From Rhizobium leguminosarum bv. trifolii WSM1325 (GTDB lineage Bacteria > Pseudomonadota > Alphaproteobacteria > Rhizobiales > Rhizobiaceae): 64,000 nucleotides of DNA. The notes beneath the pieces are model-generated. The model did not search any database. It saw nothing but the letters and a program-made list of their open reading frames with translations, and had not been told where the DNA came from. Where the stretch lies: NCBI GenBank assembly GCA_000023185.1, contig CP001622.1, forward strand, positions 1,240,001-1,304,000, read 5' to 3'. Of this stretch, positions 6,060 through 11,665 are shown one piece after another (within the stretch, counting starts at the first letter, position 1; each line of letters opens with the position of its first letter). Both the position numbers and the translations under genes were made by a program.

Positions 6060-7358
<1,299 letters not shown>

Positions 7359-7367
7359 GGAGCAGGG

Positions 7368-7844
7368 ATGCGCTGCCCCTATTGCGGTTCGGAAGATACC
7401 CAGGTCAAAGATTCGCGCCCGGCGGAGGACAATACGTCCATCCGCCGGCGGCGCATCTGTCCCGATTGCGGCGGCCGCTTTACCACGTTCGAGCGTGTGC
7501 AGCTGCGCGAGCTGATGGTCATCAAGAAGACCGGCCGCAAAGTGCCCTTCGACCGCGACAAGCTGGTGCGCTCCTTCGAGGTGGCGTTGCGCAAACGCCC
7601 GGTCGAGCGGGACCGCATCGAGCGCGCAGTCTCCGGTATCGTCCGCCGGCTTGAAAGCTCCGGCGAGACCGAGATCTCCTCCGAGCAGATCGGCCTGCAG
7701 GTGCTGGAAGCCATGAAGAGCCTCGATGATGTCGGCTTCGTGCGCTACGCCTCGGTCTATCGGGATTTCTCGCTTGCCGAGGATTTCGAGAAGGTTATTT
7801 CCGAAATCAACGCCAAGATCGCCCGCGACCCGCTGGACAGGTGA
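7368..7844 (+). CDS. nrdR: Ribonucleotide reductase regulator NrdR
   Basis: A 158-residue repressor of ribonucleotide reductase genes. The N-terminal zinc ribbon is complete ([10 protein letters not shown] and [12 protein letters not shown], four cysteines), followed by an ATP-cone domain (about residues 49-139) that senses ATP/dATP. It lies 9 bp after glyA and 3 bp before ribD, with an AGGAGCAGG site in front of its ATG, so it is co-transcribed with them. Confidence 0.97.
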
Positions 7845-7847
7845 GCC

Positions 7848-9164
7848 ATGAGGATCACGCCGCATGACGAACGTTTCATGGCGGCGGCGATCCGCCTGTC
7901 GCGCTGGCACCTCGGCCGCACCGCCACCAACCCCTCCGTCGGCTGCCTGATCGTCAGGGGCGGCGTCATCGTCGGCCGTGCCGTGACCGCCCTTGGCGGC
8001 CGCCCGCATGCCGAGACGCAAGCGCTCGCTGAGGCCGGCGCGCTCGCCCGCGGCGCCACCGCTTATGTGACGCTCGAACCCTGCTCGCATCACGGCAAGA
8101 CGCCGCCCTGTTCCCAGGCGCTGATCGCTTATGGCGTTGCCCGCGTCGTCATCAGCGTCACCGATCCCGATCCGCGGGTTTCCGGCCGCGGCATCGCCAT
8201 GCTGCGCGAAGCCGGCATAGAGGTGGATACCGGCGTGCTGGAGGCGGAAGGCAGGCACTCGCTTGCCGCCTATCTCACCCGCCAGACGAAGAACCGGCCC
8301 TATGTGACTCTCAAGCTTGCCGTTTCCGCCGATGGCATGATCGGCCGCGAGGGGGCAGGGCAGGTGGCAATAACAGGCCCGGAGGCCCGCGCCCAGGTGC
8401 AGGCGCTGCGCGCCGAAACCGATGCGATCCTCGTCGGCATCGGTACCGCGATTGCGGATGATCCGCTGCTGACGGTGCGTTCGCCAGGTCTTGAATCGCA
8501 ATCGCCGATCCGCATCGTCCTCGATCCTTCCCTGGCATTGCCGCTGACCAGCAAGCTCGTCGAGACTGCGCGGGAAGTGCCGGTCATCGTGGTGGCGAGT
8601 GAGGAAGTGTGGCCGTTGTCGGCGGATGCCGAGGGGTTACCCCCCTCTGCCCTGCCGGGCATTTCCCCCACAAGGGGGGAGATCGGCAAGGAGCCTGCTC
8701 CGCGTTCTCCAGCTTCCGATGATGATGGTTTCGCCTCCAGGCAAGATGTGGGGCAAGAGGCTAGCCCCCAGCCAATCTCCCCACCTGTGGGGGAGATGCC
8801 CGGCAGGGCAGAGGGGGGCATCCCACCCACAGATCCCACAGACATGGAATCCCGCCGCGCAGCCCTCGAAGCCGCCGGCGTCGAGGTCGTCCATTGCAAT
8901 CCCTATCATCCGGAAGTCCTGTTGCCGGCACTCGCGACGCGCGGTATTTCCTCGCTTCTGGTCGAGGGCGGTGCAAAGACGGCGCGGCTTTTCCTCGAGG
9001 CTGGCCTTGTGGACCGCATCCAGCTTTATCAGGCGCCTGTTGTGATCGGCGAGGGCGGTATTGAATCTCCGCTTGATGCAACCGACATACCATCGGGTTT
9101 TGCCCATACGGGCACGCTGATGTTCGGCGGCGATCGCCTGGACGAATACGAAAGAGGGCTTTGA
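7848..9164 (+). CDS. ribD: Bifunctional riboflavin deaminase/reductase RibD with a repeat-derived insert
   Basis: RibD carries out the second and third steps of riboflavin synthesis: deamination and then side-chain reduction of the pyrimidine. The deaminase domain comes first, with zinc motifs HAETQAL (about residue 53) and PCSHHGKTPPC (about 83-93). The reductase domain starts near residue 150 (LKLAVSADGMIG) and ends in GLVDRIQLY and FGGDRLDEYERGL. Residues about 265-325 are encoded by an inserted palindromic repeat and have no counterpart in ordinary RibD; without them the protein would be about 377 residues, the usual size. The frame remains open throughout, so the gene is probably functional if the insert loops out. 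The stop overlaps the ribE ATG by one base. Confidence 0.95.
   Translation: MRITPHDERFMAAAIRLSRWHLGRTATNPSVGCLIVRGGVIVGRAVTALGGRPHAETQALAEAGALARGATAYVTLEPCSHHGKTPPCSQALIAYGVARVVISVTDPDPRVSGRGIAMLREAGIEVDTGVLEAEGRHSLAAYLTRQTKNRPYVTLKLAVSADGMIGREGAGQVAITGPEARAQVQALRAETDAILVGIGTAIADDPLLTVRSPGLESQSPIRIVLDPSLALPLTSKLVETAREVPVIVVASEEVWPLSADAEGLPPSALPGISPTRGEIGKEPAPRSPASDDDGFASRQDVGQEASPQPISPPVGEMPGRAEGGIPPTDPTDMESRRAALEAAGVEVVHCNPYHPEVLLPALATRGISSLLVEGGAKTARLFLEAGLVDRIQLYQAPVVIGEGGIESPLDATDIPSGFAHTGTLMFGGDRLDEYERGL
8640..8822. repeat. Mosaic palindromic repeat inserted in frame in ribD
   Basis: Two arms of about 48-52 bp at 8640-8687 and 8771-8822 are near-perfect inverted copies; both contain the core ctctgccctgccgggcat, followed by a stretch that itself folds (ctccccc...gggggag). 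About 83 bp separate the arms. This type of palindrome is widespread between rhizobial genes, where it could fold at RNA or DNA level. Here the total length keeps the ribD frame open. Confidence 0.85.
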
Positions 9165-9775
9165 TGTTCACCGGAATAGTCACCGATATCGGTACGATCG
9201 AATCCGTTTCGTCGCTGAAGGAGGGCATCAAGCTCCGCGTTGCGACGAGTTACGACCCGGCAACCATCGATATGGGCGCATCCATCTCTCATTCCGGCAT
9301 CTGCCTCACCGTCACCGGCCTGCCGCAGGAAGGCAGCAATGGCCGCTGGTTTGAGGTCGAGGCCTGGGAAGAGGCGCTGCGGCTGACGACGATCGGCGCC
9401 TGGCAGGAAGGCAGCCGCATCAACCTCGAACGGTCGCTGAAGATCGGCGATGAACTTGGCGGTCACATCGTTTCCGGCCATGTCGACGGTAAGGCGGAAA
9501 TCCTCTCGGTGACAGCAGAGGGCGACGCCACCCGCTACCGTCTGCGCGCGCCCGAACATCTGGCGAAATTCGTCGCCCCCAAGGGTTCGATTGCACTCGA
9601 CGGTACTTCGTTGACGGTCAATGCCGTCGACGGCACGGATTTCGATGTGCTGCTCATCCGCCACACGCTCGAGGTCACCACCTGGGGTGATCGCAAGGCT
9701 GGCGATTTCGTCAATTTCGAAGTCGACACCATGGCGCGTTACGCCGCCCGGCTGGCCGAATTCCCGAGCACCTGA
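9164..9775 (+). CDS. ribE: Riboflavin synthase alpha chain
   Basis: A 203-residue protein that dismutates two 6,7-dimethyl-8-ribityllumazine molecules into riboflavin and a recyclable pyrimidine. The two lumazine-binding repeats are clear: MFTGIVTDIG with SHSGICLTV in the first, and GGHIVSGHVDG with ALDGTSLTVN in the second (from about residue 100). The ATG at 9164 overlaps the ribD TGA by one base (TGATG), indicating translational coupling. It ends the first riboflavin block and faces rfbA convergently across a 122-bp gap. Confidence 0.96.
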   Translation: MFTGIVTDIGTIESVSSLKEGIKLRVATSYDPATIDMGASISHSGICLTVTGLPQEGSNGRWFEVEAWEEALRLTTIGAWQEGSRINLERSLKIGDELGGHIVSGHVDGKAEILSVTAEGDATRYRLRAPEHLAKFVAPKGSIALDGTSLTVNAVDGTDFDVLLIRHTLEVTTWGDRKAGDFVNFEVDTMARYAARLAEFPST

Positions 9776-9897
9776 ATCAAAACCTGTAACGGTTTCCAGG
9801 GTCACACCACGACTGGCATGCTGGGCGCGGAACAACATCAGGCGCTCGTCGACGCATCCAACTGCATGTCTGCGACGCGGCGCCAGCCCCCGATAGC

Positions 9898-10767
9898 TCA
9901 CCAATCCGGGGACAGCTTCGTCAGATACTGGCCGTAGGCACTCTTACCGAGCTTGTCCGCGAGCTTGGCGAGGTCGTCCTGCGAGATGTAACCCATGCGC
10001 CAGGCGACCTCTTCGGGGCAGGCGATCTTGAAGCCCTGGCGTTTCTCCAGCGTGCTGACGAAACCTGCGGCATCGAGCAGGCTGTCCGGCGTGCCGGTGT
10101 CGAGCCAGGCATAGCCCCGGCCCATCAGCTCCACGAAAAGCTGGCCGCGCTCGAGATAGGTGCGGTTGACATCGGTGATTTCCAATTCGCCGCGCGGTGA
10201 CGGCTTCAGGTTGGCGGCGATATCGACCACCTGCTGGTCGTAGAAATAGAGGCCGGTCACCGCCCAGTTCGATTTTGGCTTCTTCGGCTTCTCCTCGATC
10301 GACAGGGCATTCATCTTTTTGTCAAAGCCGACAACGCCATAGCGTTCCGGATCGGTGACGTGATAGGCGAACACCGTTGCGCCTTCCCGCCGACCCGTGC
10401 CGGATTTCATGATTTCCGGCAGTCCGTGCCCGTAGAAGATGTTGTCGCCGAGAACGAGTGCCGAGCTGTCGCCGTGCACGAAGTCGGCGCCGATGATGAA
10501 AGCCTGGGCGAGGCCGTCCGGGCTCGGCTGTACGGCATAGGTCAGCGAGATTCCCCATTGCGAGCCGTCACCAAGAAGGCGCTTGAAGGCTTCGACGTCG
10601 TGAGGCGTGGTGATGATCAGCAACTCCCTGATGCCTGCGAGCATGAGCGTCGTTAGCGGATAGTAGATCATCGGCTTGTCGTAGACCGGCATCAACTGTT
10701 TCGAAACGGCCTGCGTGATCGGATGCAGACGCGTGCCTGTGCCGCCGGCGAGAATAATTCCCTTCAT
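9898..10767 (-). CDS. rfbA: Glucose-1-phosphate thymidylyltransferase
   Basis: A 289-residue enzyme (RmlA) that makes dTDP-glucose from dTTP and glucose 1-phosphate, the first step of dTDP-L-rhamnose synthesis for LPS. The nucleotide-binding signature [14 protein letters not shown] is at the N-terminus, followed by [17 protein letters not shown] and later [19 protein letters not shown]. The ATG at 10767 is preferred over one six bases upstream because AGGAG then sits at good spacing. It is last in the rfbC-B-D-A transcription order, 10 bp after rfbD. Confidence 0.96.
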
Positions 10768-10777
10768 GCCCATCTCC

Positions 10778-11665
10778 TTAAAGACCCTTATTCAAAAGGT
10801 CTTGCATGACAAACGTCATGGACTGCTTCCACTCCGGCAGCCGGATTCCATAGGTTCTGGCGAGCTTGTCGCCGTTGAGACGTGAATTGGCGGGCCGCTT
10901 CGCCGGTGTCGGATAGTCCGCCGTCGGGATGCGCTCGACGCCGACGTTTCTGCCGCCGGATTTAGAAAGCTCCGTGAATATCTCTTCGGCGAAGTCCGCC
11001 CAGCTTGCCTCGCCGCTGCCGGTCAGGTGAAAGGTGCCGCGCAGCGATGGCGCAGGGTCCGCTACGATACGGGATGCGATCGCAAGAATCGCGTCGGCGA
11101 TGTCGAGTGCCGAGGTCGGGCATCCTGTCTGATCGGCGACGACGCGAAGATGATCGCGCGTCTCGGAAAGCCGCAGCATCGTTTTCACGAAGTTGGCGCC
11201 AAAGGGCGAATAGACCCAGGCGGTACGCAAGATGACGTGGTTCGGGTTCGCCGCCGCGACGGCCTTCTCGCCCGCGAGCTTCGAACGCCCATAGACGGAG
11301 ATCGGCGCCGTCGCATCCTCTTCGGAATAGGCGGAGGCCTTGTCGCCGCTGAAGACGTAGTCGGTCGAAATGTGGATGACCGGAGCCCCGATCCGCGCAG
11401 CAGCCTCGGCAACCGCCCCGGCGCCTGCTGCGTTGACGGAAAAAGCAAGCTCGGGTTCGCTCTCGGCCTTGTCGACCGCCGTATAGGCAGCCGCCGAGAC
11501 GATCACATCCGGCCGCAGAGCCGAGAAGGCGGCTGCGATGCTTACAGGATCCGCGAGGTCCATTTCCGGGCGCCCGACCGCGCTGATTTCGACGCCCATT
11601 TCGGCGCCACGTCTGAGCAGCGACTGAACGACCTGGCCCTGTTTGCCGGTGACGGCAATGCGCAT
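10778..11665 (-). CDS. rfbD: dTDP-4-dehydrorhamnose reductase
   Basis: A 295-residue NAD(P)H-dependent short-chain reductase (RmlD) catalysing the final step to dTDP-L-rhamnose. It has the N-terminal nucleotide fold ([17 protein letters not shown]), the [14 protein letters not shown] block, [10 protein letters not shown], and the catalytic YGRSKLAGE motif. It lies 3 bp downstream of rfbB. Confidence 0.96.

Follow-up and report, generated by a model that had tools for sequence, protein, structure and literature searches.

The window analysed here, a stretch of 64,000 nt from Rhizobium leguminosarum bv. trifolii WSM1325, carries on its plus strand nrdR (7368..7844; Pfam Zn_ribbon_NrdR and ATP-cone), followed by the deaminase/reductase gene ribD (7848..9164) and the riboflavin synthase gene ribE (9164..9775; Pfam Lum_binding). 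RibD is needed for growth without riboflavin. The ribD ORF encodes 438 aa with an insert that is the subject of this study, and is open throughout, insert included. The protein matches Pfam dCMP_cyt_deam_1 and RibD_C, the latter split into two stretches of which the best covers residues 151-252, and the top Foldseek hits are the RibD structures 3zpc and 2b3z. It is the only full RibD match in the source genome, a second match being partial (E 4e-8). The ATG of ribE overlaps the stop codon of ribD (TGATG), and translation of the two genes may be coupled through this overlap.

Inside the reductase half of ribD, an inverted-repeat search delineated a palindromic element on the plus strand with a left arm (8634..8694) and a right arm (8764..8824) of 61 nt each, 85% complementary to one another and set 69 nt apart by a spacer (8695..8763). 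An earlier sequence-only reading of this DNA had claimed a palindromic repeat within ribD, which we confirm; its interval of 8640..8822 is slightly too narrow, since the arms extend over 8634-8824. The 179-nt core (CCCCCC...GGGGGG; 8640..8818) has a length of 2 mod 3 and is open in the ribD frame. RNA transcribed from 8640-8822 has a predicted folding energy of -133.2 kcal/mol, compared to -83.0 ± 4.6 kcal/mol for 200 dinucleotide shuffles (z -10.9), none of which folded as well. The element bears terminal inverted repeats, a MITE criterion, and no Rfam family matched window positions 7000-11000 at gathering thresholds. As that reading also proposed, the repeat lies in frame, so that it would be translated as about residues 265-324 (PPSALPG...RAEGG), and the RibD sequence is intact on either side. 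In an AlphaFold2 model of RibD (45 sequences; mean pLDDT 81), the pLDDT falls below 50 only at residues 254-327 (8607..8828), between the strand at 246-250 and the helix at 330-342. The insert is thereby predicted to protrude as a disordered segment from a reductase-half loop.

To describe this loop across the genus, we measured its length, with residues 250 and 339 of the window-encoded RibD as anchors, in all 148 RibD loci, one match having been found in each of the 148 genomes searched. The anchor-to-anchor stretch ranges from 27 to 351 nt, with at least 150 nt in 65 alleles (L083 included; L numbers denote loci), 120-149 nt in 5, and less in 78. All but one of the 148 alleles are in frame without stops, the exception being L083, which has NN in its insert; the long alleles, from separate genomes, are in frame in 64 of 65 cases. 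On a quick IQ-TREE gene tree of RibD itself, computed with the insert excluded, the 147 alleles other than L083 require at least 64 length changes, all of them multiples of 3. The nearest named loci are from Rhizobium, and among 80 named loci, many of which represent the same genomes again, 73 were measurable and all 73 are in frame. The insert is present in R. sophorae, R. esperanzae, and R. hidalgonense, and absent from R. leguminosarum USDA 2370 and R. ruizarguesonis UPM1133. Uninterrupted alleles, which the sequence-only reading had suggested seeking by alignment with relatives, do exist: the short-loop close relatives L064, L066, L068, and L070 are ~93-95% identical before the site and 97-100% identical after it.

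Filled and unfilled states are scattered over the RibD gene tree, with at least 17 changes between them overall and at least 13 within a 64-allele clade that comprises 47 filled, 3 partial, and 14 empty alleles. In the empty alleles L063, L074, L076, L077, L078, and L081, the right end of the element is fused to the left flank, and in the L064 group it is nearly so; these alleles therefore look like deletions between short repeats. No clear scar was seen in the empty alleles L060, L075, L079, and L080. For the empty alleles, loss would be the direction of change and deletion its route: removal of the element by deletion between the short repeats at its base would leave an in-frame scar.

We then asked how the insert evolves as protein. 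Across 26 pairs, dN/dS is 0.111 in the RibD flanks versus 0.673 in the insert region, where misalignment may inflate dN. Differences at the three codon positions number 417/395/505 in the insert, compared to 337/166/1440 in the flanks. One allele (L055, genome G122) reads the larger part of its insert in a different frame, while both flanks remain in frame. The dN/dS pattern and this allele together indicate that the protein sequence is nearly free, but the frame is not. Judged by its substitutions, the RibD insert region is drifting almost neutrally as protein.

The repeat is dispersed. A genome-wide search with the ribD element as DNA query, a check that had likewise been suggested, returned 20 further places in the source genome (G000) besides ribD, all on contig C1. 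We examined 18 loci for both arms, leaving out L158, L162, L165, and L172 (no arm pair), L154 (a 62-nt half copy), and L177 (which repeats L163). The full copies in genes, one in RibD (179 nt) and two in CobN (176 and 176 nt), are all 2 mod 3 in length and open. The remaining nine of the 12 full copies examined lie outside recognised genes, in agreement with the sequence-only reading that this repeat is normally found there. They measure 166, 175, 174, 172, 167, 171, 192, 149, and 202 nt, and a single one, the 149-nt L170, is frame-compatible (2 mod 3 and open). The ORFs spanning five of these copies (L150, L151, L152, L157, and L171; one ORF each) match no Pfam family, and for the other four no spanning ORF longer than 118 aa was listed. 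L170 (G000:C1:2378350-2378499) lies in the cob gene cluster, immediately ahead of a cobP-like ORF. In a further genome (G001), none of three additional full copies (L361, L365, and L367; 172, 195, and 171 nt) is 2 mod 3. Copies of the ribD repeat, which we call family A, are absent from the other five contigs of G000, although plasmids from other strains carry related copies. In total, a related repeat was found in 99 plasmid records from eight genera; among the matches listed, 33 of 40 plasmid rows show no annotated gene under the match and 7 lack annotation, the PLSDB gene table being incomplete. The ends of some copies (TTACCCCCC...GGGGGGTAA) hinted at a TA target-site duplication, an idea that we dropped as most copies have no TA ends; among the empty alleles, none was a clean pre-insertion sequence of sufficient closeness for comparison.

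RibD is not the only protein into which the repeat reads. CobN of the source genome contains two in-frame copies (G000:C1:2374077-2374260, L163; 2375912-2376090, L159), and the acidic N-terminal region of FtsY contains an in-frame half copy consisting of the right arm (G000:C1:4145748-4145798, L158). In different Rhizobium genomes, palindromic inserts of four kinds are found in a single loop of CobN (L309-L338, L371-L410). From 148 CobN loci, 70 were fetched (78 left out) and 68 resolved; read from the peptides, these comprise kind A (31), the similar A' (6), C (18), D (5), and none or short (8), in a sample biased by its first 30 members, the best matches to an insert-containing query, and by 7 of the later 40, which were suspected frame breaks. 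Of the 68 resolved loci, 63 are in frame; the off-frame loci L371-L375 are among the seven fetched for suspected short frames, and homopolymer errors are possible in them. Kinds C and D match 38 and 18 places, respectively, elsewhere in the source genome. The CobN spacer of L309-L311 is inverted relative to that of L312-L316, L318, L321, and L322 (up to 95% identity in the reverse orientation), and the reading frame is preserved; a search for such inversions in RibD found none among 56 spacers.

Extending the RibD analysis to the family, we found a match in 389 of 394 genomes and fetched 50 loci among the matches listed, 3 of which repeat genus alleles. The loop was measurable in 48 and is in frame in 47 of these. 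The exception, L288 (genome G363), is a Shinella-group RibD with an off-frame 334-nt insert that contains 2 stops and looks internally duplicated, either a broken allele or an assembly error. The ribD-type repeat occupies the same loop in L207 and in the groups g75 (L259, L288), which clusters with named Shinella, g47 (L262, L268), and g18 (L265, L266, L267). In Sinorhizobium/Ensifer (L200, L215, L264, L276, L302, L303) and in part in g47 (L297), this loop contains another type of hairpin insert (TTCTCCCC...GGGGAGAAGG), by eye resembling CobN family D. Other members of these groups have neither insert. The distance from the preceding strand to the insert varies between genera, which favours separate insertions as the origin of the inserts in different genera; an old insertion with later losses is a possible alternative. 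The finding is hence wider than the single in-gene copy first noticed, encompassing several genera, several repeat kinds, and several genes.

To understand how the element changes, we compared the arms of 43 of the 54 alleles of at least 225 nt (10 dropped because of extra arm modules, 1 in which they were not found). The mean arm difference is 0.089, compared to a mean four-fold divergence of 0.349 in the flanks (43 alleles; pairs not independent). It amounts to 0.045 in the 24 pairs with a flank four-fold divergence of 0.1-0.2 and stays flat at 0.09 from 0.2 to 0.5. Left-arm third positions differ by 0.072, and the spacers, which diverge fast between species, by a mean p-distance of 0.279 (229 equal-length pairs, not independent). 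Since the low divergence extends to silent positions, the arms are conserved as DNA. Inside the arms lie the modules m1 (9 alleles) and m2 (6 alleles), forming a mosaic of the kind that characterises RIME. Across scattered lineages they appear at one arm position or mirrored in the opposite arm, with at least 8 and at least 5 changes, respectively, among the 65 filled alleles. In G001, roughly a dozen places matched m1 in the absence of the arms, and L340 matched it together with them. Arm variants toggle as well, at least 13 times at the right tip (46 alleles) and, for the further variants, at least 7 times on the left and at least 3 on the right; the toggling states also occur in 11 other copies of the source genome. 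Recurrent modules and arm variants together suggest exchange with other genomic copies, by which the insert would still be rewritten through recombination. Right tips that are neither CT nor AC, found in 12 of 58 alleles, are intermediate, so stepwise mutation is also possible. The fit between the two arms of an allele averages 42.22 of 47 positions versus 41.83 for random swaps (41 alleles; 12 of 5000 permutations). When arms were swapped with those of the nearest relative, the within-allele fit showed no gain (13 better, 13 worse, and 15 equal among 41 alleles), and ongoing arm-to-arm repair within an allele is therefore unsupported by this test.

Several other explanations have to be weighed against these data. 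The sequence-only reading had described the insert as a repeat domesticated as protein sequence. A segment with a role in RibD, such as partner binding or oligomer contacts, could account for its retention in most alleles of the 64-allele clade and for the well conserved peptide ends (PPSxLPxISPTRGEIG and PISPLVGEMPGRAEGG). These ends, however, are conserved as DNA, and the insert region combines a dN/dS of 0.67 and nearly even codon positions with a drifting spacer, scattered absence accompanied by likely deletion scars, and an allele read mostly in another frame. The domestication claim is therefore not supported, and we consider a protein role of this kind highly improbable. The hairpin might alternatively be kept because it functions as RNA or DNA at this site, for example by slowing translation or by setting the RibD:RibE ratio. 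Its very strong fold and the low arm divergence relative to four-fold sites, left-arm third positions included, would agree with such a function, which we nevertheless judge improbable given that 78 of the 148 genus alleles have fewer than 120 nt here, that presence and absence alternate on the tree, and that copies outside genes and those in CobN typically have the same arms.

The similarity of the arms across species could also reflect selection on the element as such (e.g., protein binding) or a recent common source instead of conversion. The plateau at ~0.09 could mean a constraint common to all copies, and the nearest-relative swap, with no excess of within-allele pairing, and the intermediate arm states point the same way. 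Against it speak the inverted spacers of CobN copies and the fact that scattered lineages repeatedly show the same modules, either at a fixed site or as mirror images in the opposite arm, and we regard this explanation as somewhat unlikely while giving it real weight; conversion by other copies may be what keeps the arms alike. Finally, the off-frame L288 and the NN in L083 could be taken as signs of an assembly or gene-calling artefact, or of a decaying ribD pseudogene. We rejected this reading, to which we assign practically no probability, because the long alleles come from many assemblies and are in frame with one exception, the flank dN/dS is 0.111, and the source genome has no other full RibD match.

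Comparable systems are known from other bacteria. Rickettsia palindromic elements (RPEs) are described as in-frame protein-coding palindromes (PMC2229807, PMC3733652); PMC2229807 relates that the insertion was tolerated in gmk, the case that had been tested. According to PMC2229807, they are dispersed repeats found in intergenic DNA as well as in frame within conserved genes. The repeat studied here appears to behave in the same manner, as the sequence-only reading had supposed, with in-frame copies in RibD and, twice, in CobN, a half copy in FtsY, and nine full copies outside recognised genes. The likeness drawn here is one of behaviour. RPEs are given as 105-146 bp, whereas the ribD core spans 179 nt and the other full copies 149-202 nt; moreover, the hosts here are free-living Rhizobiaceae, a single loop accommodates several repeat kinds, modules reappear, and spacers are inverted in CobN. 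Among rhizobial repeats, the Rhizobium-specific intergenic mosaic elements (RIME), the AB and C palindromes, and the Sm repeats of Sinorhizobium are described as intergenic in PMC2573895. Compared by description, RIME and the AB and C palindromes resemble the ribD element in being repeated mosaic palindromes of rhizobia that are dispersed (here over 20 further places and 99 plasmid records), but the ribD copy lies inside a gene and in frame. Enterobacterial RU-1 (ERIC), RU-2, and RU-3 likewise form in-frame fusions (PMC2759123), and a 2007 review (PMC2229807) covers such fusions in enterobacteria and, with Correia elements, in Neisseria. As described there, they too are small repeats of a mobile-like character whose open frames are fused to genes, differing in their hosts and in that no recurrent filling of one loop is noted in these descriptions. 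Cod-2, another repeat family, is reported inside coding sequences in PMC2267715. A search of the open literature, which lacks most subscription papers, listed no account of rhizobial palindromes read in frame.

Taken together, the ribD insert is very probably one copy, located within a gene, of a palindromic repeat dispersed in rhizobia, and is tolerated by the RibD reductase loop, with selection acting on the open frame and not on the residues. We propose that this tolerant loop can take an in-frame copy, which would add about 60 mostly disordered residues and is probably harmless to the enzyme. A frame-breaking copy, on the other hand, would cut off the reductase half and possibly lower the coupled translation of ribE, a cost that would let only frame-compatible copies and changes survive. 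The element is symmetric and open in the ribD frame on either strand, and once in place it would be rewritten by recombination with other genomic copies. More tentatively, and with a little less than an even chance in our estimate, loops of Rhizobiaceae core enzymes (RibD, CobN) may repeatedly serve as docking sites for palindromic repeats of several kinds, whose copies would stay in the genomic repeat pool, be rewritten by ectopic recombination, swap modules, invert their spacer in frame (CobN), and be removed to in-frame scars. If so, coding sequence would join the concerted evolution of a mobile repeat.

The repeat within ribD is real and widespread and, from the standpoint of genome biology, unusual: a tolerated and still changing repeat inside coding sequence. 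It brings the in-frame repeat habit to free-living soil bacteria and to core enzymes. The dozens of natural alleles, whether filled, empty, or altered, make it directly testable if inserts of this type do no harm, are of use, or open a route to new protein sequence. The case also cautions that a loop in a rhizobial protein may consist of repeat DNA and not of conserved domain sequence.
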